Below, piece by piece: positions 6,742-56,946 of a DNA stretch of 64,000 nucleotides. How positions within the stretch are numbered: position 1 is the stretch's first letter; each line of letters begins with the position of its first letter. The DNA lies in contig NC_091217.1 in the NCBI RefSeq assembly GCF_040958095.1, forward strand, positions 11,529,120 through 11,593,119. The letters run 5' to 3'. The DNA is from Procambarus clarkii (Eukaryota > Arthropoda > Malacostraca > Decapoda > Cambaridae). The notes under the pieces are model-generated. The model saw nothing but the letters and a program-made list of their open reading frames with translations. It did not search any database and was not told the origin of the DNA. Made by a program: the position numbers and the translations under genes.

Positions 6742-9345
6742 CAGGGGTCTCCAAACTATGGCCCGCGGGCCACATCCGGCCTGCCACATAATTTCATCCG
6801 GCCCTCCAAACAAATCCCTGTGTGGTGGCCTTGAAAAAATAATTATGGTACGAATGGCATCGCAGAATTATTCAAAGCTGGGGCTGCTGACTGGTGGCGC
6901 TCAACCCGAGTCAGTTTTCCTCTCTCTCGATAGTGTGACGCACAGATACTAATACTGGTAGGTATGTGTTGTGCATTACAACCAATCAGTTGTGTATAAC
7001 TGTATATTGTGGGGATGGAGGGCGAGTGGGGCTTCGCTGCTTCCGTTTCAGGGAGCACAAACACTGTACAATATTCTTTTCTCTGTACTTTGACAATGCC
7101 TTTATCTTAGTTATACAAAATAGCAATAATACTATTGTAGCCAAAAATATTGCATGTTTAAAATAGTTAAAATGATAACCATTAAGTTTATCAACGAAAG
7201 CTGTTGCCATAATATTTACCACTTTATAATAATATGCTATGCTTTTTAACACCACATACAAGCTGTTTTTTTCCTGTAGAATTTATTTCATTTATTTTAC
7301 CCTTATGTTTTCAGATATGGAAAAGATAAAGAAAAGAAAAGTGGACATTGAGTGCCGTCGGTTCAATGATGAATGGAAGATAAAGTACTTTTTTGTGATA
7401 GCAAATGATAAAGCTTTATGCATAATATGTAGAGACAGTGTTGCTGTTCTGAAGGAATACAATATTCGTCGGCACTATGAATCTAAACGTGGCTCAAGTT
7501 ATTCTCACATCACAGGAGCAGAACGCACTAAAAAGTTTGAATCATTTCAGCACAGTCTGCATTCTCAACAAGCTGTTTTCAGTAAGAAAAAATCTGAAAA
7601 TGAAACTTCAACTAGAGCCAGTTACAAAGTTGCCTATGTGTTGGCTAAAAAAGGAAAACCTTTCACTGATGGTAGTATCATAAAAGAGTGTATAGTGGAA
7701 GCAGCAGGAGAGGTATGTCCAGAAAAAGTAAACCTCTTCAAAATGATAAGTCTTGGGTCAAATACTGTTGCTCGTAGAATTGAAGATTTAGGAGGCGACA
7801 TAATTCGGCAAATAAAGGAAAAAAACAAAAAGATTTTGTTGGTATTCTCTTGCGTTGGATGAATCAACTGATGTGTGTGATACTTCTCAGCTCTTAGTAT
7901 TCATTCGTGGTGTTGATAGTGAATTTAATGTGAACCAAGAATTAGCATCAGTTCACAGCATGCACACCACAACAACTGGAGAGGACATTTTCAATGAACT
8001 AAGTAAAACTATGACAGAATATAACCTGGAATGGAAACAAGTGCAGTGTGTGACAATTGATGGAGGAAAGAATATGTCTGGGACAAAGAAGGGTTTGGTT
8101 GGGCAAATTACAACAGCTTGTGAGGTTGGAGGCTCAAAACCCATTTTTCTGCATTGCCTTATCCATCAACAAGCATTGTGCCTAAAATATGTTGATATGT
8201 CTTGTGTCATGAAACCTGTTGTTTCTGTGGTTAATTTCATTAGATCTCATGCACTCAACCATCGCCAGTTCCGTGATTTCTTGAAAGAAATTGATGCGGA
8301 GTTTGTTAACTTGCCTTATTATACAGCAGTTAGATGGCTTAGTTGTGGAAAGGTTTTGCTGCATTTCTTTGAGCTCAGATTAGAAATTGATTTATTTCTC
8401 ACAGAGAAAAATAACCCTCAGCCATTATTATCAGAATGTGAATGGATTTGGAAATTGGCATTTTTTGCAGATATGACAGGTCATATGAATAACTTGAATC
8501 TGAAATTGCAAGGCAAAACAAATTTGATCAGTGACTACTTTGTTCATGTCAAGGCATTCAGAGCAAAACTTGCACTACTTGAAGGCCAGGTGAAGGTTAA
8601 GAATTTTGCTCATTTTCCATGTTGTGAAAAATTTCATGCAGGAAGTAAAGTTGAATTTCCTTTTTCATTTGCAAATGAAATAATTTCAGATTTGAAAAAA
8701 CAGTTTCAGAAGCGATTTGCTGACCTTGATGCCAAAGCAAATGAAATCAGGCTCTTTCATAATCCATTTGACTGCAATGCTGAAAATCTTCCAACTCAAT
8801 TTCAAATGGAAATTATTGATCTCCAGGCAGATGACAGACTGAAAGATAAGTATAGAGAAGGAAATCTGATTGAGTTTTATAAATGCCTGCAGCCAGATCA
8901 GTTTCCAAATTCGATAAAGTTTGCTTGTAGTTTTGTGTCCATTTTTGGTTCAACATACTTGTGTGAACAAACTTTTTCCAAAATGAAGTATGTGAAATCT
9001 AACTATCGAGCAAATTTGTCTGATGATCACTTGAAATCAATTCTTACAATTGGCTCATCTAATCTGGAACCTGATTTTAATGAAATTTTGAAGTCAAAAC
9101 AACAGTATCATTCGTCACACTAATTTGGTTGCATAAAACTAAAGGCAGGAATCTATTTAGTTTACCCTGATTTTTTCCAAAAAGATATGTTTGAATTTTT
9201 CCATGTTTATACTTTAATATTTGAGGAAATTAAATTACTGGCACTGATTTGTTTTTTGTTTTTTTTCATTTTTTATTCCTCCGGCCCGCATAAATATGGG
9301 AAATATATAATGTGGCGCTTACATTGAAAAGTTTGGAGACCCCTG
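6742..9345 (+). mobile_element. hAT DNA transposon, almost intact
   Basis: The 2,604-bp element is bounded by 16-bp perfect terminal inverted repeats, CAGGGGTCTCCAAACT at 6742 and its reverse complement ending at 9345. It is flanked by a perfect 8-bp target duplication, ACTTAGAT, at 6734-6741 and 9346-9353. TIR sequence, duplication length and the encoded BED-finger transposase all fit the hAT superfamily, close to the lineage from which vertebrate ZBED5/FAM200/GTF2IRD2-type proteins were domesticated. The clean TSD and TIRs suggest a fairly young insertion into otherwise decayed DNA. Confidence 0.95.
7317..9123 (+). pseudogene. hAT transposase with one frameshift
   Basis: The transposase catalyses cut-and-paste transposition. 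Starting at the ATG at 7317 (MEKIKKRKVD), a BED-type zinc finger follows (DEWKIKYFF, then CIIC about 30 residues on, then an RRHYESK His segment). The frame then crosses to a second one near 7845-7856, where the expected segment before DESTDV reads SCVG. The second frame (7855-9123, 422 residues) carries DESTDVCDTSQLLVF (first catalytic Asp region), TIDGGKNMSG (second Asp), HCLIHQQALC, TAVRWLSCGKVL and the C-terminal dimerisation motif FGSTYLCEQTFSKMK. Total length is about 600 residues, as expected for this subgroup. One single-base-class indel is the only clear lesion, so the copy is probably inactive but recent. A 'ttttcag' just before the ATG could be a 5' intron acceptor. Confidence 0.9.
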
Positions 9346-11172
9346 ACTTAGATAACTGTATCCAAGCATAGAGGTTCCCCCCCCCCCCCTTCCCTTTCAG
9401 AAAAACATCTACTTTCGAAAAAGTTTAACATTGCCCAACAAAAATGATTCCAGAACTAAATTGCCTAATACCAGGAACAACTGAGAGCCATGACAAACAC
9501 TGCAACCCTCTCCTACCCCCAAGTCTTATGCTATTTATGATCCAAGGTAATTTGACATACTATACTGTACTTCCTACAGACGAGTCTAGTGAGAGGGTGA
9601 TCTCCTGGCGATTAAATTGAAGCACGATACAGGTGTCAACGAACATCAGTCAGCCCACTTGTCAGCACAGTGGATAACTAATGACATCATAATCTGCAGT
9701 GTTGTATGCCTCCCTGTGGCCATTTAAATCAATAAAACACAGGGTTGTGGCAATGTTTACAGCATAAGGCAAGGTATAGAGGAATCCTGGAATGCCATGT
9801 AATGTGTAGTCCTTGAATGTGCTTTAGGCAACCAAATTGAATAACAACATTTCTGGTGTTCGGCTATATAATCCGAGTTTCTCATTCGGTATGATGTTTT
9901 AAACCTAAATAGGAATTCACTTTAAAGGTCAATTTATTTGCAAAGTGCTAACCAGATTCCAAATTACTGAGCTCTGAAAATACTACAAGGCAAGTTTAAC
10001 CGAATGAGTGTTTGCCTATCCATACCCCCATGAGGTATGTGACAACACTGAATAAAGAAAGGGTCTTTGAGCATTCACCGTGCAGGTATTAATATAATTG
10101 TACAATGGTGCTTGGTGGATGATATTTCCTATTAAAACTCATTGGACAACTGTTTGTATTAGACATTTTAAACCTACAAATGGTAGCCCTAGATATCGCA
10201 CTACAGTATTAATTACAAGATGAACAATGTAAAATCAATACCACAACAGCAAAGGATGACAATGGCTTTTCAACAACCGACAAACACACAGGTCTAACAC
10301 CAGCCATCCCGAGAGAGGACGTCCCAAGCATGTACACCCCACAACTTTACATCACCTTTGCTACCTCACGCGAGCACGCAACAGCATGAGGATGCCATAC
10401 TCCCAAACCAACTCCATGCACTTTGAGGCTTTAACAACTCAACATTTAAAAAGTTGATTTAAAAAATCAAACACCTGAATTTTTCCCAAATTAAATTTAC
10501 TAGGGAAATGCACACCAAGCCATGAAACTTACAATGAAGATGAACAAACTACACACAACTGTCACCAAACTTCCACATACCACCCCCCTCTCACTCCTGC
10601 CCTCCCTCCTTAGGTGCTCTGATTGGCTGAGCACCTGAGCCACCACCACTCGCCTCTTGTTGTGAGAGCCTAGAGCATGTTTGGTTGCACTTTAAAAGTT
10701 CCCGAGTGTACTCGCCTAATTGTGAGTACCGCCTGCCCGGTTCACCATTTTGTTTTTCAATCTACCTCAATTTACCCCTTTACAGTCAAATATTATGCAA
10801 AATTCTGTTTAAGACTTGTCCCTTCTTAACTTAAATAACTGCTTTGGCCATCTGCAATCTTTCTAGGTGGGTAAAAATGACTCTTGAGGCCAGAAAGGAC
10901 TTATCACACGGCGATCATAACAATACGGTACACACACAAAATCACAACCTGATATACACCGAGCAGAAAATCCACTGGAGCTGTGATGCGACGTAAACCC
11001 TTGCCCAAGGCACTGGCAGCTGCATACTCTACCACAGTATATTACTGACTTTGTAAAAGTCTTACAACCGGATTTCCCCATAAATCACAGCAAGTTTTGA
11101 GGCCCCTCCTTGAGTCAACGTCTTACGTAAGACCTACAAGCACTCAGGTGAAGGCTGAAGAAGCAGTTCAAC

Positions 11173-13920: not shown

Positions 13921-14756
13921 TTAGTAGTTAACCACTGAACTGCTCTGTCTCCAAATAACACCCTGGTGCACAAGAAATAAATTCTTTCCAAAAATTTTTT
14001 TTCTCTTCTTATATTGTTAAAATGCAGAGTCTGATCACGGGGAAACTAAACAAAAAATATTGTATGTGACTTACTTTAGCTGCGATGGAGCTGGGAAGTT
14101 GAGCAAATTATGGGCGCTGAGCGTTGGAGCGATGGGGGTCTGTCGGCCCCGCCACCCCGTGCGACGGCAGTTGCTGCGAATAAAATGTTGCGCAATTATT
14201 TTGAAGTTTCTCATTCATTTCTTCTTTTTTTTTGCTGTAATATTATTTAAAAGTGTGTAATTTGTGGAATTTATATAATTCAAAGTATAGAACATCGCTA
14301 TGCTCAAAATTATGGGCCTCATATATGCGACATATTCTACAATCAAACAGTGTTTTTGCTGTTATTACACTATATACACACATTGTATATACCCATCTAC
14401 GTATGTATTCACCATAACGATCCACTATGTTGGTATGGTGAGCCCAAAAAACATGAGTGAGCTGCCACACCCTGCCAGTCCTCCCTCCCTCCTCCAACAC
14501 ATTACTCGCCAACATTCCTCCTCCCAAAATACTGTTATTGTGTTTATTACACTATTTACACACGTTATGTATAAGTATGTACATGTTTTATTCATGTACA
14601 TACGTACATACTTCCATCTCCTCACCTCTCTCTCTTGCCTACTTAATGCTCTTGCTTCCCTCATCTCATCACAATCGACTTTATAATGGTCCAGGACGGA
14701 TCGAAATGTCGTCGTCTATTCAATTTCCAGTGTGTGGTTTGGTCAACAATGAAATC
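13921..14756. other. Spacer with fold-back repeat remnant
   Basis: Mixed AT-rich DNA with a few short open frames and no recognised domain. At about 14689-14748 it carries part of the repeat seen whole at 50741-50921 (segments 'ggtccaggacgga' and 'gtgtgtggtttggtcaac'). Confidence 0.5.
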
Positions 14757-21290: not shown

Positions 21291-21400
21291 GATATCCCAT
21301 GCTTACAGATACCCCATTTATAATATCGGCAGATTGTGGGTCCTTGTTTTGTTTGTCTCAAAATCCCTGGCGCCAATATCGCGCCCGGTGCGCCGACCCC

Positions 21401-21493
21401 AACGTCGCATCCGGCCCCGCCGCCAACGTCGCATCCGGCCCCGCCGCCAACGTCGCATCCGGCCCTGCCGCCAACGTCGCATCCGGCCCCGAC
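21401..21493 (+). repeat. 24-bp GC-rich minisatellite, four units
   Basis: AACGTCGCATCCGGCCCCGC begins each 24-base unit at 21401, 21425, 21449 and 21473. The array is repeated at 28085-28177 within X copy 2. It yields RIRPRRQR-like open frames, which I regard as by-products. Confidence 0.9.
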
Positions 21494-21659
21494 GCGCTGA
21501 GATGTAAATCCAATTCTGGTTCTGCCTGGGTGTCCTTGTCAATTTGTTTGAAAACATTGGAGATTTCCGTGCAGGCTGTTATAGAGTGTAACGCTTATAT
21601 GAGAGATTAAAAGAGTGTAACAATTATATGCTGTGCTTACTATATTAACCTGCAATGTA

Positions 21660-22414
21660 TAGTTTAGTTCATTTATTATGTACCCCATACCCATCTTGTG
21701 GGCGGTAGTGGAAAGGGTTACAGAGGCACATAATGGGCTCAGGGACTGAACCCCACAGTGCATTTAGCTAAGTAAGTTACAATCTTGATGAGCTAGTTAC
21801 AAAATTCAATATAAGTCGTCACATCAACAATGGGTTCGAAATCGACCACAAGTACACTTTCTAAATTAAGCAACTGACATAAGTGGACGCTGCTGAAGAT
21901 GATGTTGCTGAAGATTAAGTCACCCAAAAGGTGGCACGGGCATGAATAGCCCCTAAGTGGTGGCCATTTTAAGCCATTACCAGTATCAAGAGCTGATACT
22001 GGAGATCTGTGGAGGTGCGAATGCACCCTGCATGACGGGAAATGTCTCCCTTGTGAATGTGTTAAGATGAAGATGAAGCCACCCAAAAGGTGGCACGGGC
22101 ATGAATAGCTCGTAAGTAGTGGCCCTTTTGAGCCATCACCAGTATCAATAGATGATACTGGAGATTTGTGGAGGTGCGACTGCACCCAGCGTAACGGGAG
22201 ATATCTCCCACACATGTGGAGACCTAGTGTCACAATTTATATGTTTGTCCTGCACACCGCCCCCCATCCAGTGGGCAGTGGTGGATAGATTACAATCACT
22301 TAATAATTACTACCTACAGTTTGCAAACCGGGGATATTTGGCTAAATTTTCTGGTAGCAGATCATTTTGAATGAAATATTTACACATTGCTGGAACATTG
22401 GTTATAGAATTGTC
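21660..22414 (-). mobile_element. LINE B 3' tail with inserted module
   Basis: Minus strand. The terminal segment is the complement of 'agtttagttcatttattatg' and matches the tails at 29644, 30234, 36464 and 40056. Relative to those tails, about 330 bases (21881-22213) are inserted between 'actgacat' and 'atgtggaga'. Confidence 0.85.
21921..22212 (+). repeat. Two-unit 159-bp tandem module
   Basis: Unit 1 starts at 21921 and unit 2 at 22080. Both contain CACCCAAAAGGTGGCACGGG and then the 'accagtatcaa...gatactggaga' inverted segment. The module is also present at 28605-28896. It looks like a short mobile repeat inserted in the LINE B tail. Confidence 0.8.
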
Positions 22415-27966: not shown

Positions 27967-29098
27967 TTCTTTCCGATATCCCATGCTTACAGATACCCCA
28001 TTTATAATATCGGCAGATTGTGGGTCCTTGTTTTGTTTGTCTCAAAATCCCTGGCGCCAATATCGCGCCCGGTGCGCCGACCCCAACGTCGCATCCGGCC
28101 CCGCCGCCAACGTCGCATCCGGCCCCGCCGCCAACGTCGCATCCGGCCCTGCCGCCAACGTCGCATCCGGCCCCGACGCGCTGAGATGTAAATCCAATTC
28201 TGGTTCTGCCTGGGTGTCCTTGTCAATTTGTTTGAAAACATTGGAGATTTCCGTGCAGGCTGTTATAGAGTGTAACGCTTATATGAGAGATTAAAAGAGT
28301 GTAACAATTATATGCTGTGCTTACTATATTAACCTGCAATGTATAGTTTAGTTCATTTATTATGTACCCCATACCCATCTTGTGGGCGGTAGTGGAAAGG
28401 GTTACAGAGGCACATAATGGGCTCAGGGACTGAACCCCACAGTGCATTTAGCTAAGTAAGTTACAATCTTGATGAGCTAGTTACAAAATTCAATATAAGT
28501 CGTCACATCAACAATGGGTTCGAAATCGACCACAAGTACACTTTCTAAATTAAGCAACTGACATAAGTGGACGCTGCTGAAGATGATGTTGCTGAAGATT
28601 AAGTCACCCAAAAGGTGGCACGGGCATGAATAGCCCCTAAGTGGTGGCCATTTTAAGCCATTACCAGTATCAAGAGCTGATACTGGAGATCTGTGGAGGT
28701 GCGAATGCACCCTGCATGACGGGAAATGTCTCCCTTGTGAATGTGTTAAGATGAAGATGAAGCCACCCAAAAGGTGGCACGGGCATGAATAGCTCGTAAG
28801 TAGTGGCCCTTTTGAGCCATCACCAGTATCAATAGATGATACTGGAGATTTGTGGAGGTGCGACTGCACCCAGCGTAACGGGAGATATCTCCCACACATG
28901 TGGAGACCTAGTGTCACAATTTATATGTTTGTCCTGCACACCGCCCCCCATCCAGTGGGCAGTGGTGGATAGATTACAATCACTTAATAATTACTACCTA
29001 CAGTTTGCAAACCGGGGATATTTGGCTAAATTTTCTGGTAGCAGATCATTTTGAATGAAATATTTACACATTGCTGGAACATTGGTTATAGAATTGTC
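27967..29098 (+). repeat. Direct repeat block X, copy 2
   Basis: Second copy of 21283-22414. Here the LINE B part runs on without interruption into its RNase H-downstream region (29099-29278), which shows that the right edge of X is native to this copy. Confidence 0.95.
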
Positions 29099-32446: not shown

Positions 32447-33608
32447 TGTAATATATATTCTACTCTGTATATATTCTACTCTATATATTCTGTAATATAT
32501 ATATATTATAAATAAGAGTTGGTATCTCCTCAAGGGCACTAGACTTGGTTTTAGGGGAAAGGATTGTGTCAGTAACATCAGTGGAATTAGTAGGCATTAG
32601 GTACAGAGACTGTGGATAGTTACCTGTAAGATAGTCCTGAATATTAGTACTGGAAGATGGAATATCATTTGCCAGGGATGACCCAATGGAAGAGAAGAAC
32701 CTATTGAACTCAAGAGCAGTGTCAGAGGCTGAAAGCAGACCATCATTATTTGACAGGAGTATTGGTTTGTTATTTGTAATCTTCTTTGATCCCAATATTT
32801 GAGAAATTGTGCTCCATGTTTTCTTAATATTGCCCTTTGTGGGGGTAAATTTTTCTTCGTAGTATTTAATTTTGGCTCTCCTAATTATTTTAGATAGCAA
32901 TGATGAGTAATTCTTTGAAAATTCTTTGGAGACGGTTCCTAACCTATACTTCTTCTCAAGGTCATGTTTTTTATTAATGGATTTAAGTATCCCCTTTGTA
33001 AGCCAAGGATTGTTTAGCCTTTTAGTTGTGACTTGTTTCGTTAGCATAGGATAGTGGGTGTTATAAAGGCTGAGAGTTTTTTGAAGAAATGATTGCACTG
33101 TTAGGTTGATGTCCCCTATGTTCCCTAATTCGGATCCCCAGTTGATATTAGCAGCAGCAGCTATAAAATTGCCTATAGCAGTTTCATTTTGCAGCCTAAA
33201 GCTTATCTCCCTTGTCTCTAGAGGTGGTTTGTTAATGTTGGTTAGGAGAAATGTGGGGTCAATGAAATGTGGAAAAATGTCTGTAGTGCTATCGATGATT
33301 ATCCCTGAGGTAAGTGGAGAGGTTATGTTGGTCCAGATGTGATCAAGAGCCGTGGCAGTACTGTCAGTGATTCTAGTAGGTCTAGTGATTACGGGTATGA
33401 GGAAGCAGGAATTCATACAGTTGAGGAAACTAGCAGCAGGAGAGTTATCAGGCTCGCAGAGGTCAACGTAAAAGTCACCAGAAATAATTAAATGGTTTTT
33501 GTTCAGTCGGTTCTCTAGTATAAGATTTCTAAGGTTTGAGTTAAATTCAGTCACATCAGTGTTAGGAATCAGTGTCACATTAGGTTAGTGCCGAGGGTGC
33601 CGGGTCTA

Positions 33609-36456
33609 TCCTGTCTGTGGGTGCAGTTTATAGAATTCCTAACACTGATGTGTCCGAATTCAACTCAAACCTTAGAAATCTATTACTTGATAACAGACTG
33701 AACAAACACCACCTAATTATCGCAGGGGACTTTAATATTGACCTCTGCGAGCCAGAACACCCTACTGCTGTTAGCTTCCTCAACTGTATGAATTCCTGCT
33801 TCCTCATACCCTTAATCACTAGACCTACTAGAATCACTGATAGCACTGCCACGACTCTAGATCACATCTGGACAAATATAACCTCTCCGCTTACTTCAGG
33901 TATAATCACCGATAGCACTACAGACCATTACCCCACATTTCTCTTAACTAACATTAGCAAACCACCTCTTGAGTCAAGAGAGATACGTTTTAGACTACAC
34001 AATGAAACTGCTATAGACAATTTTATAACTGCTACTGATAATGTCAACTGGGAGTCCGAGTTAGGTAACATAGAGGACATCAACCTAGCAGTTCAATCTT
34101 TTCTTCAAAAAACTCTTAGCCTTTATAATACCCACTGTCCTATGCTTACAAAACAAGTCACAACCAAAAGGCTTAACAATCCCTGGCTTACAAAGGGAAT
34201 ACTTAAATCTATTAATAAAAAACATGACCTTGAGAAAAAGTATAGGTTAGGAATTGTCTCCAAAGAATTCTCAAAGAATTACTCATTATTGCTATCTAAG
34301 ATAATTAGACGAGCCAAAACTAAATACTACGAAGATAAATTTACCCAAATAAAGAGCAACATTAAACAAACATGGAGAACAATTTCACAAATATTGGGAT
34401 CAAAGAAGTCTTTAAATAACAAACCGACTCTCCTGTCTAATAACGATGGTCAGCTTTCAGCCTCTGATTCTGCCATTGAGTTCAATAGGTTCTTCTCTTC
34501 CATTGGTTCATCCCTTGCTAATGATATTCCATCTTCCAGTACTGACATTAAGGACTATCTTACAGGTAACTATCCACAGTCTCTGTACCTAAAGCCTATT
34601 AATTCCGCTGACGTCAATGAGATAATCCTTTCCCTTAAAACCAAGTCTGGTGCCCTTGAGGAGATACCAACTTTAATCTGCAAAAAAGCCTCCAGATCTT
34701 TAGCCCCTGCTATTGCTTTGCTCTTCAACAAGTCACTTGAACTCCAAACCTTTCCAGATATTCTAAAAAAAGCGAGAGTAACGCCTGTCCACAAATGTGG
34801 TGATCTCACAGATGTTAACAACTACAGACCTATATCAATCCTGCCAAACTTGTCAAAAATTTTTGAAAAACTAATCTATAAGCAGCTTTACTCATATCTA
34901 GCCAAACTCAATATACTTAGCCCTTGCCAATATGGCTTCAGGCCCAAAAAAAGCACTAACGATGCACTTATTAGTATGCTTAACTCGATTCATACAGCTC
35001 TTGATAAAAATGAGTTCCCTGTTGGGTTATTTGTGGACCTGCGTAAAGCTTTCGATACTGTCAACCACCAAAATCTTCTTCTTAAATTACATCATTATGG
35101 TGTCAGAGGACACTCCCTACAATACCTCAATTCCTACCTTACTGACAGGCTCCAATGTGTTTCTGTGAATAATACAATTTCTCCCACCCTACCCATCAAC
35201 ATTGGTGTTCCCCAGGGCAGCATACTTGGCCCTCTCCTCTTTCTCATCTACATTAATGACCTTCCAAATGCCTCCCAACACCTCAAACCAATTCTATTTG
35301 CTGACGACACAACCTTCATTTACTCCAGTCCTGATCCCCTTGCTCTAAATGCCACAGTAAATACTGAGCTAAATAAAGTCCATCTGTGGCTAACTGCCAA
35401 CAAACTCACCCTTAACATTGACAAAACTTTCTATAGATATATGCTGCTTGGCAATAAATCCTCTAATCAAATAAATCTCAAAATAAACAATACCCAAATT
35501 TGTAACAAATTAGATGGCAAATTCCTTGGCATTCTCATTGACCACAAGCTGAATTTCCAGGGACACATTCTAAACATATCAAAAAAAGTTTAAAAAACTG
35601 TGGGCATTCTTTCTAAGATCAGATATTATGTACCACGCCCTGCCCTGGTGACTCTCTATTACTCCCTTATCTATCCATATCTCAACTATGGTATTTGTGC
35701 TTGGGGCTCTACTACCCAAAATCACTTACGTCCTCTAATTACTCAACACAAAGCTGCTATTAGGACAATATCCAATTCTGGCCCCAGACATCACTCGGTA
35801 CCCCTACTCAAATCTCTGAATATGTTAGACATTAAGTCACTGCACATTCTCTCATGTGTATTATACATATATAAAACGCTAAACTATAATGCCAATCCTG
35901 ACATTAAAAGCTTCATAGAAGGTTGTAACAGAACCCATGAGCACCACACCAGAAATAAATACAGTTTTGATATTCCTAGAGTACGACTTAATCAAACCAG
36001 AAATGCTCTACAAATCAAGGGGCCCAGAATGTGGACTGACCTTCCCAACCATGTTAAAGACTGTACCTCTCTCAACCAGTTTAAGTTAAAAACGAAGCTA
36101 TACCTAATAAATTCCCTGTAACCTACCTTACCCCTCTGTTGTCAACCCATGTATGTTTTTTTTTTTTTTTTTTCAAATCAACGCTGTTTGAATGTAATTT
36201 TCTGTAATAATTTGTAATTGTATTTGTGCTGCTTTTTCAACAATGTTCCCCCCTCTTTTACCTCTATTTTTATTTGTTCTCAACACATTTTATTCTTTTT
36301 ACCCATTAGTTTTAAGCTTTAGTCATTAATGTTTTTCCTGCCCGAAACGCTTTGCGTAATAGTGGCTTTAGGCATTGTATGTACTAGCTCTATCTATAAA
36401 GCCAACAAACTTTGTAAAATCTCTTTATGTATGTACCTTATCTAAATAAAAATTAT
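33609..36456 (+). mobile_element. LINE A, plus copy, 5' truncated
   Basis: Carries ORF2 (33617-36121), a 3' untranslated region with a T-run near 36155, the core CCCGAAACGCTTTGCGTAAT at 36341, and an A-rich end at 36456. The N-terminal part of the endonuclease is missing; the equivalent is present in the fragment at 38385-38870. Confidence 0.92.
33617..36121 (+). pseudogene. LINE A ORF2: endonuclease (partial) - reverse transcriptase
   Basis: 658 codons are open, followed by a stop at 35591-35593 and a further 173 codons in the same frame. The other copy has a Ser codon at that position, so one C-to-A nonsense change is the main lesion. The APE-type endonuclease retains AGDFNIDLCEP (about residue 36), DHIWTN (about 88) and the TTDHYP segment. 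The RT has NYRPISILPNLSKIFEKL (about 402), GFRPKKST (about 439), FVDLRKAFDTVNH (about 472), GVPQGSILGPLLFLIYINDL (about 529) and the catalytic FADD (about 560). The C-terminal part carries YPYLNYGICAWG and RMWTDLPNHVKDCTSLNQF. It would nick target DNA and copy LINE RNA into it. The 5' truncation means it cannot act alone. Confidence 0.93.
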
Positions 36457-39154: not shown

Positions 39155-40430
39155 CAATACAATACAATTTTATTTAGGTAAGGTACATACATACAATAAA
39201 TATTTACAAGGATTGTTTGACTTATAGGTATAGCTAGTACATACAATGCCTAAAGCCACTATTACGCAAAGCGTTTCGGGCATGATGAACTTAAATGACA
39301 AGCTTAATACTAATTGAGCATAATGAGTAGAATGAAAACAAGAAATGAAAACATAGATGAAAAAGCAGCACAAATACAATTATGTCGACAAACAGCGCTC
39401 TTTAAAGAAAAAAACAGACATTGGTTGACAATAGAAGGGTAAGGTAGGTTACAGGGAATTTATTAGGTATAGCTTCGCTTTTAACTTAAACTGGTTGAGA
39501 GAAGTACAGTCTTTAACATGGTTGGGAAGGTCATTCCACATTCTGGGCCCCTTGATTTGTAGAGCATTTCTAGTTTGATTAAGTCGTACTCTAGGAATAT
39601 CAAAACTGTATTTATTTCTGGTGTGATGCTCATGGGTTCTGATACAACCTTCTATGAAGCTTTTGAGATCAGGATTGGCATTATAGTTTAGCGTTTTATA
39701 TATGTATAATACACATGAGAGAATGTGCAGTGACTTAATGTCTAACATATTCAGAGATTTAAGTAGGGGTACCGAGTGATGTCTGGGGCCAGAATTGGAT
39801 ATTGTCCTAATAGCAGCTTTGTGTTGAGTAATTAGAGGACGTAAGTGATTTTGGGTAGTAGAGCCCCAAGCACAAATACCATAGTTGAGATATGGATAGA
39901 TAAGGGAGTAATAGAGAGTCACCAGGGCAGGGCGTGGTACATAATATCTGATCTTAGAAAGAATGCCCACAGTTTTTTAAACTTTTTTTGATATGTTTAG
40001 AATGTGTCCCTGGAAATTCAGCTTGTGGTCAATGAGAATGCCAAGGAATTTTAGTTAGTTAGTTTAGTTCATTTATTATGCACCCCATACCCAGCTTGTG
40101 GGCGGTAGTGAATTTGCCATCTAATTTGTTACAAATTTGGGTATTGTTTATTTTGAGATTTATTTGATTAGAGGATTTATTGCCAAACAGAATTTAAAAG
40201 GTTTTGTCAATGTTAAGGGTGAGTTTGTTGGCAGCTAGCCACAGATGGACTTTATTTAGCTCAGTATTTACTGTGGCATTTAGAGCAAGGGGATCAGGAC
40301 TGGAGTAAATGAAGGTTGTGTCGTCAGCAAATAGAATTGGTTTGAGGTGTTGGGAGGCATTTGGAAGGTCATTAATGTAGATGAGAAAGAGGAGAGGGCC
40401 AAGTATGCTGCCCTGGGGGACACCAGCTGG
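39155..40430 (-). mobile_element. LINE A, minus copy, RT palm to 3' end
   Basis: C-terminal 173 codons (39970 to 39449) nearly match 35600-36121. Upstream, 39971-40430 carries the ISKKV stop (also TAA at the equivalent codon), the FADD region and GVPQGS (as 'tgtcccccagggcagcat' on the minus strand), split by a 58-bp LINE B scrap. It shares the nonsense codon with the + copy at 33609, so these two are closer to each other than to 29465-33578. Confidence 0.9.
40052..40109 (-). mobile_element. 58-bp LINE B end with TSD
   Basis: Insert bounded by GAATTT at 40046-40051 and 40110-40115. It contains only the last about 58 bases of LINE B, including the ACTAACTAACT-type 3' end (minus strand). Confidence 0.88.
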
Positions 40431-50091: not shown

Positions 50092-50095
50092 AGCT

Positions 50096-51050
50096 GGGTC
50101 ATTCCATCTCAAATCACCAAAATGTCACCTATGGCTTCCACTCGATCCTCTCCAAATGCCTGAAAATTTGTAGTAAGATAGCCCTAGACCCCAAATAACA
50201 CTTTGCAAAATATTAGAGCTCAATCTGCTTTGGTTCTTAAATAACAGGTCTATATTCAATGGGCTCTCGTCCCATTAATGCGTAAGTATGTACCACAAAA
50301 ATGACCAACTTTGACCTTTTGTTAAATCACTTCTATTGCCTGTAGGAGTGTGAAATTTGACATACCAGGACAACTTTTGGTGTAGAATAACATAGTGTAA
50401 TCAAAAAAGCAGTGTGGGTGGCCATTCAGCTATCCATCCATGCTAAAATCTCTGCCAAATTTTGTCGCAAGAAATTTGTACCCCCAATTTGGAGAGACAT
50501 ACTCATCAGCAAAATGTCTAAACGCCATGATCTTTTGCAACGATGTATAACAAGCACAATATTATGCAGTGATGCAATAGCAACTCTGTTGTATCCATAT
50601 GTCCAGAGGTGGCCCACTTGAAAGTTGGCCCAAAAAATTTATGTGCAAAATATCTCAATATGCGTCATTTCCTAATTTTGTTTTGAATGACACCATTGGA
50701 TAGAGCAGATTTTTCTGTACAAGAGTAACTTTTATCTAGGTGATGAGTCACAATAACGTGGCTGAAGTATGTTTACCAATCCACACACTAGAAAATGAAG
50801 GGACGACGACGTTTCGGTCCGTCCTGGACCATTCTCAAGTCGATTGTAGACCTGGACCTTTCACCATTCTCAAGTCGAAACATCATTGTCCCTTCATTTT
50901 CTAGTGTGTGGATTGGTCAACAACTTTTATTTAGGTTGGGATCTGAATTCCTAGTTCAGCCAGAGGACTCTGAAAATGACATACTTTGGTGCGATATCGA
51001 AAAAATGAAATTATGATTCTCCATCTTCTTTGTGCACTGATCATGACTTT
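50096..51050. repeat. Left long terminal inverted repeat of DNA transposon
   Basis: Pairs with 52325-53092. Shared blocks include 'aatattagagctcaatctgc', 'ggacaacttttggtg', 'tgtataacaagcacaatatt' and 'gcaactctgttgtatccata'. Contains the guest 50741-50921. Confidence 0.9.
50741..50921 (+). mobile_element. 181-bp fold-back element with 14-bp TSD
   Basis: Flanked by AACTTTTATCTAGG (50727-50740) and AACTTTTATTTAGG (50922-50935). The right arm of the host transposon shows the empty site. Internal perfect 29-bp inverted repeats lie at 50776-50804 and 50888-50916, with the phrase ACCATTCTCAAGTCGA twice between them. A partial copy lies near 14689. Confidence 0.85.
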
Positions 51051-51275
51051 TTTTCTTTCCATTCTTTCCGGGACACATTCGACTAAATTCTTCACCCTCA
51101 AAAAACTGTACAGTACTACCCTTTCCTTCACTTCCTCAGGAACTGACTTGCCCTGCTTTTTCTTAGGAATTGCTAGTATTCCCTGCTGTTCTTTCAGCTT
51201 CCTAGCGTCACGAACCATGTATTCTGAAACTTTGAATTGCTCCATTGTCTTTTTGATAGACCAGCTTTGTGGCAC
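50931..51275 (-). pseudogene. Transposon ORF remains, second part
   Basis: Minus strand from 51275: SIKKTMEQFKVSEYMVRDAR, KLKEQQGILAIPKKKQGKSV and PEEVKERVVLYSF. The remainder (from about 51100 down) quickly becomes non-coding and runs into the left inverted repeat. I recall similar VSEYMVR-ARKL-KE-GIL proteins as lineage-specific transposon-encoded families in arthropods and cnidarians. No catalytic domain is visible. The downstream region expected in such proteins is missing. Confidence 0.55.
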
Positions 51276-51287
51276 GAGGGTTAGGAT

Positions 51288-52040
51288 TTATATTTTTTCT
51301 TGGCGCTTTGCTACATGGAATTTTAGCTTCATTTCTTCAATGAGTTTATTGAAGTCTTGGCAATTTGTGCTCTGTTGGCTAGAGCTTGGTACCAACAGGT
51401 TTTGGCAATCAATATTTTCAATTGCAGCAATCTGCTCGGCAATTATTTCCTGTGCTTGGCTAATCTTAGGCTTTGCGTAACCATGCTTATCCCTTGCACT
51501 AACTCGTTGATATTTAATAGGTGAGATGCCTAATACTGATAAACTTGAGTCTATACTTTCACAGATTTCCATATTATCAGCAGGGCCATCAGATTCAGTA
51601 GAGCTGGACTCACTCACCTGCTTACTCTCGAATTTCTTTTTGCATGATGTGCACAGCTTTTGGCCAGGCTTGATACTGACTTTCAGCATATCTCACATTT
51701 TCTCTGCAGTAGCTACTGTGATTGGTTGCAAATCTTTTCGTTTTACATGGCATTTCTTCTTGAAGGGATTGCAGCAAGTATTTTGCAAAAATTCAAATTT
51801 CGTCAACAGCAAAGCTTCATGATGGAGGCATACTTAAGATTCTCCATCCAAGTTCAGTTCACTTCACTTTGCTATCAGTTTTTGATCTTCTGCACTATAC
51901 TGTTTAGAAACTTCAAGCCTTTCTTAGGAGTGTAGGTTGTCAAGTTACATTCAGAAGAGCCAAGCTCATGGCTAGCAATAGCACATGGCAATAAACCAAT
52001 GGAATCCTGATTCATGACGTATCTGTAATCGAATTCAAAT
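51288..52040 (-). pseudogene. Transposon ORF remains, first part (Cys-rich head)
   Basis: Minus strand. About 51660-51800 reads CCNPFKKKCHVKRKDLQPIT, then (51689 on) MLKVSIKPGQKLCTSCKKKF, a Cys/His cluster followed by a Ser/Glu/Asp-rich stretch (SESSSTESDGPADN), RVSARDKHGYAKPKI and LIEEMKLKFHVAKRQEKI near 51290. A separate short frame further upstream gives MNQDSIGLLPCAIASHELGS. Together with 50931-51275 this looks like the N-terminal two-thirds of a transposon-borne protein. A stop and shifts separate the parts. Function not recognised. Confidence 0.55.
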
Positions 52041-52324
52041 CAAATTATTTAACTAACTGAATACAGTAATTTCAAGTGAGTACCTGTAATACATTAATAT
52101 TAATATTGCTTTTTATTTATTTGTGTATTTATTGCAAGTAAATACACAAATAAGTAAACGGTAATGTTTGACCTGCTGACACGATACTACAAAGATGTAA
52201 AGATAAATATAGAACAGGAACTTAAAATAGCACTGATTGTTTAATAATAATTCTGAATCCCAACCAAAATGTTTTACCTAATGATGCTTAAAATTTTTCC
52301 AATCAGTTTGGATATCAATTTGAT

Positions 52325-53092
52325 AGCAGTCATAATCAGTGCACAAAGAAGATGGAGAATCATAATTTGATTTTTTCAATATTGCACCAAGGTATGTCAT
52401 TTTCAGAATCCTCTGGCTGAACTAGGAATTCAGATCTCAACCTAAATAAAAGTTAATCTTATACAGAAAAATCTTCTCTCCAATAGTGTCATTCAAAACC
52501 AAATTGGGAATGACTCATATTGAGATATTTTGCCTTGAAAGTTGGCTAGTTTTGCACAAAATTTTTTTTTGGCCAACTTTCAAGTGGGCCACCTCTGGAC
52601 ATATGGATACAACAGAGTTGCTATTGCATCACTGCATAATATTGTGCTTGTTATACATCATTGCAAAAGATCATAGCATTTAGACCTTATGGTGATGAGT
52701 AAGTGGTCTTCACATTGGGGTCCAAATTTCTCACGACAAAATTTGGCAGTGATTTTAGCATGGATTGGTAGCTGAATGGCTACCCAAACTACTTTTTTGA
52801 TTACACTGCTGTATCCTGCACCAAAAGTTGTCCTGGTATGCCAAATTTCACACCTCTCTGGGCACTAGACGTGATTTGATAAAGGGTTAAAGTTGGCCCT
52901 TTTTACGATGTGTATGCATTAATGGGATGAGAGCCCATTGAACATATACCTATTATTTAAGAACTAAAGCAGATTGAGCTCTAATATTTTGCACAATTTC
53001 ATTTGGGGTTTAGGGCTACTTTATTACAAAATTTCATTAGATTTAGAAAGGGTTGAGTGGGAGGCCTTTGGTGAATTCACATGGAATGACCC
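52325..53092. repeat. Right long terminal inverted repeat
   Basis: Complement of the left arm. Carries no guest and so gives the uninterrupted version. Confidence 0.9.
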
Positions 53093-53282
53093 AGCTATAT
53101 CTTGCTCTGGTTAGGCCCCATTTAGATTATGTAGTCAGTTTTGGTCGCCGTACTATAGAATGGATATAAATTCACTTGAACGTGTCCAGTGTAGGATGAC
53201 AAAGTTAATTCCCCAAATTAGAAACCTGTCATATGAAGAGAGATTAAAAAAGCTTAAATTGAATTCACTGGATAGGCGAAGA

Positions 53283-54556: not shown

Positions 54557-56946
54557 GGGCTCCAGTGATTTTTCAGCACTGTGCTTCGAGTGTGGTGATT
54601 GTCTTCCAGGGGTGCGAGAGCCAGGAGTTATTCTACAGTACTCGGGCTGTATGTGCCTAGGGTTACCTTCCCTAAGAGCCCTGTAAGTACTGCCCTTGGG
54701 GCTTGGGGTTACCTTCCACAAGTTCCTTGGGTCCTGCCTCTGCTGGGCTGTTTAACTGTTCGTTTTTTTGGCCGCCCTTTGGGTGCTTGGGTGTTTTGTC
54801 TCCTTGATTTACCTTAGGGTAAGAGGCAGTTTGCATTGGTACGGGATGCAAGGTGCTGCGCAGCTTGGTTTCACCATTCATAACTGCCGGCTCTGTTCCT
54901 TTGAGTGCGTTGTCCTCTTGCTGGGATTTATTTTTATTTTTGTTTGTACCTTGTGGAGGGATCTGCCTTGCTTGGTGACTGGTGACTGATCTAATACGGT
55001 TTTCTTCTGGTGGTGCCCCCTGCTAGGTCTTCGTGAGTGTACACGTCCCTGAGGTTCAGCTTTAGAAAGTTGCTTGGTAGTTTTGGGCACCGGTTAGCAG
55101 TACCCTGACTGGGATTCCCTGAGTGTGAGTTCCATCTCAGGACCCTGGGAAACCCCACGGGGGCGCGTGGGTCCGATGGATGTGAACCCGGAGTCCACCC
55201 CCCTCGCTTCGTGCGAGTTCGAGGGCTACTCGGTCCCCTTGTCTCAAGGTGACTCACTGATTTTGAATCTGTCACGCTGCCTGTTGGGTTGGTGACACTT
55301 TTGACCCGGAGTCCTGCGAGTTCTGTTGCTTGCTAGTGACTCGGTTTACTCAGTCTAATGATGATCTTCTACGGGTACAGGTGGCGCAGGCATTGCATGT
55401 GCGCTTTAGGTTGTTGCAATGCGGTCGGTTGGTTGCTCACCCGGATGCCCCAAGGCTGCCCCATTTTGCTTATAGGGACCCAGTCTTGAGGGGTGGGGGT
55501 CACTTCGACGTTGGTTCAGTCTGCATCCCCTCGTCCTACCCCTGTTGTGGTTCGTTCAGGCCCCCCCCCCCCTCCCCTCCTCTGCTTCCGGCCCTGAAGC
55601 GTCTGAGGGTTTTGGAGTCGGGGCAGGGTTTAGATGGTCTTAAGACTCGGGCAGTCTTGGGGGATGCCCCTTCTGGTGTGGTGACGGAGGCATTCGAGTC
55701 TGATCTCCCTGCTGCAGCCTCCGGGTCTGACCAGTGGTCCCTCCTTCCATCAGGCTTAAATGACTGCGCCGGCCTTTTCTTTAGAGGCTGGTGCTCTGGG
55801 GGATGACTCAGCCCCGGGACCTGTGGAGAAGGATCCTGGGGTAGAGAAGGAGCTGACTTGGGGGCCTTGGACCCCAATGGACCCTGCCTGGGTTTTTCTG
55901 CCCTCTGAGTGGGGCTTATTGTTACAAGGAGTGGGGTTCTCTTCTTCCCCCTCTGCGTACGAGTTGGATTTGGTGTCTGCCCCTCCCCTGGTTCGGTTCC
56001 GTGCCCCCCGGTTGCGTCGGTTCCGTCTTTCCGGATGTTTTCGGCTTATCACATCCTACCGTTTGTGGTGCGGGAAGCCCTAGCAGCTTGTCTCCTGTGC
56101 GACCTGGATTATGCCTCGCTTATGGATCAGTCTTCTTTCAGGTTTGGGCCATCGTTCCCTTTCTAGGTCCGTTATGTGGTTCTGGAGTCGTCCTGGCTGG
56201 CGGACTGTCCTGTGTTTGCTTTGAAGGCTTGGCATTCCTTTTGTCGTTCCCGCACGCTTGAGTGGAGCCAGGCTTTGACGGTGGTTCAGGGTTTCCTGGG
56301 GGAGACCTTGAGCACCTCAATGAGTGCTTGTTTGCCCCAGCCCTTCCCCGGGATATTGGCTTAGTGCAGTTCCATGTGCAGGTTTCCTCCCTTTCGGCTG
56401 CGCAGGTTGCTGAGGACTTGCGCTCTCATGGCATCTTAGCTTTGGTCTTGCATTTCTTTTCTCTCTTGGAGCTGTCTTCGGACTGGCTCCAGAGATATGG
56501 ATACTCTTTTCTTTCTTCTCCTCCTCGGTTTGTTGTGGCTCCTTCTGTTCGGGATTGTTTCTCGAAGGCTCTTTTTCTGTTGGCATTGGCCTCTGGGGGG
56601 TCGGGTCGGTGAGCTTCATGCTCTCCTCCGGTGCAGGGGTTTCTGCTCCTTTGGTTGTGGTGATAGGTTTGTTCACCTGCAGTTGTCTTCTTTTCTGGCA
56701 AAGAATGAAACTGCTGCTTTCTGGAGGGGTTCTTTGGTTGTTGATGCTTGGTTAGGCCAGCCGTGCATCATGCTGGGGGTTTCTATAGGCCATTGCTCCC
56801 CATGCCTCTCTGAGGGGGGCCAGGTTCTGGCTCGTGGTCCCCGGTAGGCCCACAGAACTCCATACACATGACTGATGCCAAAGTCTGACATTAGCATATC
56901 AGCCTGGATAAGCTTTGGGGAGCCTCCGGGTCTCACCCAGAAAATG
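54557..56946 (+). mobile_element. DIRS-like retroelement fossil, part 1
   Basis: GC-richer than its surroundings. A central-to-right part contains segments typical of DIRS tyrosine recombinases: SKALFLLALASG, GELHALLR and SSFLAKNE. The left part is probably gag-like. It is broken in many places and appears old. Parts seen: gag-like region and recombinase region. No RT was recognised in this piece. Identification rests on recalled family motifs. Confidence 0.55.

Follow-up and report, generated by a model that had tools for sequence, protein, structure and literature searches.

An Abundant Non-Autonomous DNA Transposon of Procambarus clarkii with Composite Inverted Repeats and a Truncated Transposase ORF

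Introduction

A LINE in the genome of Procambarus clarkii is interrupted at positions 50096-53092 of the stretch analyzed here (64,000 nucleotides of contig NC_091217.1; the window), which raises the question of what kind of element was inserted and how it came by both long inverted repeats and an incomplete gene. An earlier, sequence-only reading had described an unassigned DNA transposon with inverted repeats near 770 bp and a 4-bp AGCT duplication, either from a poorly described superfamily or from a non-autonomous branch of a family with 4-bp duplications such as Sola. It had suggested that relatives be sought in the source genome, that a consensus be built and that all copies be inspected for 4-bp duplications. 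Judged by title, none of the literature matches listed names the family.

Results and Discussion

Insertion into a LINE and Copies in the Genome

The 12 bp at both termini of the element are identical (GGGTCATTCCAT/ATGGAATGACCC), and complementarity reaches 90% over 30 nt that include AGCT. Without mismatch, GGGTCATTCCAT occurs in the window at the two element ends only; with up to two mismatches, nine matches were observed vs. 5.3 expected. When the LINE flanks were joined with a single AGCT, they translated as PGVVHQLYLALVRPHLDYVV, which aligned without a gap across the site with an independent LINE ORF of the window, and none of 1000 shuffles was as good. Since the joined flanks align gap-free across the site, the 4-bp AGCT duplication is real, and the excision-type reconstruction of the LINE proposed earlier is borne out. 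The features of the element are listed in Table 1.

Table 1. Coordinates of the element, its parts and its target-site duplication in the window.
Feature	Position	Strand	Basis or remark
Non-autonomous DNA transposon	50096..53092	- (orientation of ORF)	Ends, arms, genome repetition
Target-site duplication AGCT, left copy	50092..50095	.	Joined flanks read through LINE
Target-site duplication AGCT, right copy	53093..53096	.	
Left arm, outer imperfect part	50096..50520	.	Inner limit approximate; consensus arms alike in 364 of 415 compared columns
Left arm, inner part (nested insert included)	50521..51048	.	Consensus equal to right inner part over 352 columns
Nested foldback insert	50741..50921	.	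14-bp flanking repeats with one mismatch (50727-50740, 50922-50935)
Transposase N-terminal remnant (Cys-rich head, weak helix-turn-helix match)	51030..52015	-	Stops and frameshifts in window copy
Right arm, inner part	52328..52679	.	Outer limit approximate; arm consensus comparison
Right arm, outer imperfect part	52680..53092	.	Inner limit approximate; arm consensus comparison

The source genome (4.03 Gb, 2308 contigs) was searched with the left arm. Among 1580 first-look candidates, 40 of which were scored, at least 43 matches were obtained. Twenty regions were fetched first and six later, i.e., 26 copies besides the window copy, and a GGGTCATTCCAT-type end was located in all 26. The left arm was present in all 20 regions of the first set, and the interior with the truncated ORF in 15 of them. 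Unbroken copies are typically about 2.8 kb long. Three copies (L013, L014 and L016) each contain about 6 kb of nested retroelement-like DNA, and two (L010 and L019) contain about 1.9 kb of other inserted DNA.

The relatives sought by the sequence-only reading thus exist as many copies with common ends. That reading had also named two findings that would speak against a transposon, namely copies without common ends or duplications and an interior matching a host gene family; instead, ends and 4-bp duplications recurred in other copies, and the interior belongs to the repeated element. With identical 12-bp ends, AGCT on both sides and dispersed copies, the DNA transposon with an AGCT duplication claimed for this interval is confirmed. 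The coding interior is the one observation that would favor a host gene, or an inverted repeat arisen by chance, at 50096-53092, and the common ends, the duplications and the many dispersed copies contradict this explanation so clearly that it can practically be dismissed.

Some of the fetched sequences derive from the same insertion. The copies L022, L034 and L035, which have a common flank on contig C38, appear to go back to a single insertion that was multiplied through segmental duplication, and L013/L016 as well as L015/L023 are further copies of one insertion each. A cluster of arm matches that includes L022, L034 and L035 extends from 22.4 to 32.4 Mb of contig C38.

The long inserts of L013 (1240-7300), L014 (1270-7630) and L016 (1330-7720) were considered as parts of autonomous versions of the element and rejected, since they consist of nested DNA of a retroelement-like kind that carries long ORFs; in the L014 insert, the one that was checked, a match to reverse transcriptase was found. 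We suspect that the C-terminal ORF of this retroelement encodes a DIRS-like tyrosine recombinase; a Pfam search with this ORF yielded no match. By eye, an ORF at 55267-55806 of the window is similar to it.

Target-Site Duplications and Comparison with Known Superfamilies

The tally of duplications started from 27 sequences (window copy and 26 fetched copies). Fewer than two ends were inspected for L011, L014, L017, L022, L024, L034 and L035, which were left out, as were L015 and L016 as repeats of the insertions L023 and L013, respectively, leaving 18 distinct insertions with both ends inspected. Exact 4-bp duplications were found in 14 of these 18 (agct, tgtc, atat, accg, tcca, ttaa, cagt, aaaa, atat, agtg, ttta, aata, aaaa and ttat), that of L010 being read through a small terminal deletion and that of L029 after a one-base shift. 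The duplications of L018 and L021 match in three of four bases and that of L023 in two of four, and that of L020 was not determinable. To the question of whether all copies have 4-bp duplications, the tally gives 14 exact cases, three imperfect ones and one not determinable. A or T accounts for 43 of the 56 bases of the exact duplications vs. 59% in the window, and there is no fixed motif. Common ends, inverted repeats and duplications of fixed length, all directly observed in many copies, are those of a cut-and-paste transposon with terminal inverted repeats.

Academ transposons, with duplications of 3-4 bp, resemble the element in the shortness of the duplication; a helicase or nuclease part was not seen in the element remnant. 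A Sola2-type transposon would agree with the 4-bp length, the feature by which the element resembles the Sola superfamily, and with a protein lineage that we take to resemble the Sola DDD transposases. This assignment appears rather unlikely in view of the target sites: the amoebozoan Sola2 elements in the available excerpt of PMC3627910 have an AWWT target and repeats of 12-21 bp, whereas AWWT fits only 2 of the 14 exact duplications (unmet in 12) and the repeats of the element are about 770 bp long. Because of this poor fit, which is measured against the amoebozoan description alone, the element was not filed under Sola. The duplications of piggyBac and Kolobok, given as 4-bp TTAA in the accessible part of PMC9587614, are alike in length, but TTAA occurs in only 1 of the 14 duplications of the element, which thus belongs to neither group. 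For Academ, the portion of PMC5199201 consulted lists 3 bp.

A Truncated ORF in Neutral Decay

The peptides pointed out earlier in the interior (CCNPFKKKC, CTSCKKKF and VSEYMVRDARKLKEQQGIL) share a single minus-strand frame, which contains two stops. The consensus that had been called for was built by majority from 15 copies, and in it this frame stays open for 327 codons (MNQDSIGLL to PGKNGKKKSHDQCT), as far as the alignment extends, its edge being 18 bases into the left arm. The minus-strand ORF breaks off at the start of the left inverted repeat. In order to obtain the consensus and the selection test, the window copy and 14 of the 15 ORF-bearing loci were used; L019, which is split by an insert, was dropped.

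All 15 copies tested contain 1-5 stops. The ratio of nonsynonymous to synonymous changes, relative to the expectation from the substitution spectrum, was 0.92 among singletons and 1.24 among shared changes, the latter class being inflated by two pairs in the sample that each duplicate one insertion. The ORF is thus a transposon passenger that is decaying neutrally, as directly observed in these copies. An alternative is that the truncated ORF was kept for function, its product acting as a catalytically dead DNA-binding regulator of the transposase. Such a role would be analogous to that of KP, a regulatory product of the P element, and the 327 open codons of the consensus with their Cys-rich head and possible helix-turn-helix would suit it. 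With stops in 15 of 15 copies and no synonymous excess (0.92 and 1.24), retention for function seems improbable.

A Pfam search of the ORF gave no match above the curated cut-off; the helix-turn-helix model HTH_23 touches residues 174-212 of the read-through translation with E 0.032, which is below the Pfam cut-off. Two other matches below the cut-off, Rotavirus_VP3 (E 0.011) and DUF4772 (E 0.052-0.063), were discarded because, unlike the helix-turn-helix, they are incompatible with the remaining evidence. A PDB sequence search gave nothing at E up to 1, and AlphaFold prediction of the read-through N-terminus, run with no alignment, reached a mean pLDDT of 49, too low for the model to serve in a fold search. 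No real relative of the ORF, of the 40-base repeat pattern or of the core alignment was found in the viral and prokaryote collections. The single hit, L001, was rejected as a relative of the ORF, since this contig is phage-like and its CxxCKKKFESK match is due to chance.

Relics with a Catalytic Core

The N-terminus of the ORF was recognized as that of animal transposon proteins which presumably carry a core with the motifs DFAENY, SDGCAAQYKN and HGKxPCDG. Between these proteins and the consensus ORF, the Cys pairs, SPIK, SWSI, GILAxPxxxxGK and the PGK site align. Over 251 aa, the presumed lineage N-terminus is 35% identical to the ORF, and the likeness stops at PGK, where the ORF is cut; having been written after the ORF had been seen, this sequence makes the alignment a lead only. 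The element differs from the lineage by the absence of the catalytic core: searches of the window and of 35 loci yielded none (best E 2.2). This absence, a direct observation, is the reason why the element was filed as a non-autonomous derivative.

Three partial core sequences presumed for this lineage served as probes. None of them matched a Pfam model at E up to 1, which is compatible with the poorly described superfamily suggested earlier. With one of them, 29 candidates were retrieved from the source genome; all were scored, and 16 matches resulted (best E 2.1e-27). The 16 core loci (L036-L051) include two overlapping pairs and thus represent 14 places. Stops occur in 14 of the 16 matches, and the genomic relics have the motifs DFAEN, SDGCGGQYKN and HGKGPCDG.

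In relic L037, an N-terminal part (3335-2873) lies upstream of the core (about 1857-1525). This N-terminus aligned with residues 153-316 of the consensus ORF with a score of 103, compared to a mean of 32.2 (sd 5.0) for shuffled sequences (0 of 1000 as good; z 14). The presumed lineage sequence was used for finding L037 and for choosing the two frames that were joined; it does not enter the score between L037 and the ORF itself. Thus, an N-terminus homologous to the ORF is joined to a DDD-type core at L037. The second relic tested, L044, was by itself not significantly similar to the ORF (z 1.6; 82 of 1000 shuffles as good). By tblastn, the consensus ORF detected no core locus, L037 included, at E 0.001, and at E up to 5 only short matches were obtained (best E 0.82).

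Taken with its ends, arms and duplications, these results class the element as a non-autonomous DNA transposon from a lineage with a DDD core. The earlier link of the interior to transposon-borne proteins is supported, as one to a transposase lineage, by the DDD-type core of relics elsewhere in this genome. Likewise, the reading as a non-autonomous member of a family with 4-bp duplications stood on both points, the duplications recurring in copies and the element having no transposase core. The earlier interpretation is thus partly supported, Sola being a rather unlikely placement.

At none of the 16 core loci were the element ends found. In about 1.5 kb on each side of these loci, the element arms were absent at E 0.001, and a relaxed search returned only matches of 14-19 bases with E 0.12 or worse. 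End-like 12-mers with up to two mismatches occurred seven times in the 16 loci, which is about the number estimated for chance. An autonomous partner with GGGTCATTCCAT ends was thus not found among these loci (14 places): either it is gone from the assembly or its core was missed.

Two core loci, L049 and L050, on contigs C14 and C43, are 99.5% identical over 3.1 kb and have a short DFAENY match without a stop. Either they were duplicated recently, or they represent a young element from a different family in the lineage.

Composite Inverted Repeats

The arms of the window copy span 50096-51048 (nested insert included) and 52328-53092; up to the insert, they are 81% alike (671 aligned columns), and the innermost 127 columns are 94% alike. 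The left arm is longer than the right arm mainly because the foldback insert, which has no counterpart in the right arm, sits inside it. Relatives of this insert were seen at 14671-14749 of the window and beside copy L026 (at 9666-9855).

Arm consensuses were derived from 21 left and 11 right arms, window copy included, a sample that contains duplicate insertions and leaves out the six later-fetched copies. Over the outer 425 columns, the two consensuses are alike in 364 of 415 compared positions (87.7%). The inner 352 columns are identical without exception, although the consensus support of five positions in this block is below 60% in one arm set. At the divergence rate of the outer part, such an identical run would arise by chance with a probability of about 1e-20; the inner block was therefore copied from arm to arm shortly before amplification. 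Divergence restarts where the left arm enters the ORF and the right arm enters the 5' non-coding part, so that the edge of the inner block coincides with the break of the ORF. The repeats of about 770 bp are hence composite, a new observation that, like the nested insertion in the left arm, was absent from the first reading. The pattern suggests template switching during abortive gap repair.

Origin of the Element

As the best explanation, to which we assign a probability of about 70%, the element is the non-autonomous product of an internal deletion within a cut-and-paste family with a DDD-type transposase; it arose by a template switch and then decayed neutrally. A transposase supplied in trans would have recognized the GGGTCATTCCAT ends and inserted the element with a 4-bp stagger and little sequence preference, both the supply in trans and the chemistry being inferred. 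The founder may have formed after the excision of an autonomous copy, when repair of the resulting gap was abortive: synthesis that started at the 3' side of the ORF would have switched to the other arm within the similar outer repeats (about 88% alike), about 350 bp would have been copied inward from the other end, and the switched strand would have been joined to a strand on which the gene had been copied no further than its first ~320 codons. A single repair event of this kind could delete the catalytic half and extend the inverted repeats from about 425 to about 770 bp. The founder would then have been amplified, and its copies, that of the window included, would have decayed neutrally since.

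A single event is favored because the identical inner block stops at the ORF break. The catalytic part may also have been lost first, followed by a separate gene conversion between the arms before amplification. The identical block in itself shows only copying shortly before amplification, and repair that uses the repeat at the other end has been discussed and proposed for Galileo in the available text of PMC3573991. Against two events, the end of the block at the ORF break and the outer part that was not homogenized have to be weighed, and one event is simpler; we therefore consider a two-step origin unlikely, while granting it some weight.

The single-event origin resembles what has been described for Galileo, a Drosophila member of the P superfamily, in which long inverted repeats were extended by recruited internal sequence, the ORF-derived form being called unique to Galileo at that time (accessible part of PMC4168063). 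The P superfamily has duplications of 7-8 bp (available excerpt of PMC5199201), in contrast to the 4 bp of the element, which is therefore not assigned to P; its transposase is presumably of a different lineage than that of the element. A kind of repeat restructuring related to that of Galileo, as far as the excerpt of PMC4168063 describes it, is now seen with another transposase lineage. The element provides a many-copy record of the birth of a non-autonomous family, in which the breakpoint of the enzyme gene is the inner edge of the repeat extension. It is abundant in a large genome, and its protein, in the parts tested, stays below every Pfam cut-off.

More speculatively, the lineage could be an undescribed DDD superfamily with non-specific 4-bp duplications, in an abundant member of which the template switch aided amplification. 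This idea is a long shot. If true, the switch would have placed a second copy of the 5' subterminal sequence, with possible binding sites or a promoter, at the other end, and amplification would have been aided in this way.

Other Features of the Window

A hAT-like transposase is encoded at 7233-9123 in two overlapping frames, with a zinc finger of the Spin-doc type and a hAT dimerization region. Two tandem arrays, one of 24-bp and one of 159-bp units, occur together at 21399-22209 and again at 28083-28893; this recurrence at a distance of 6684 bases points to a segmental duplication. A LINE with endonuclease and reverse transcriptase lies at 33584-36121 on the plus strand, and a C-terminal ORF at 39449-39976 on the minus strand is, by eye, nearly identical to that of this LINE.
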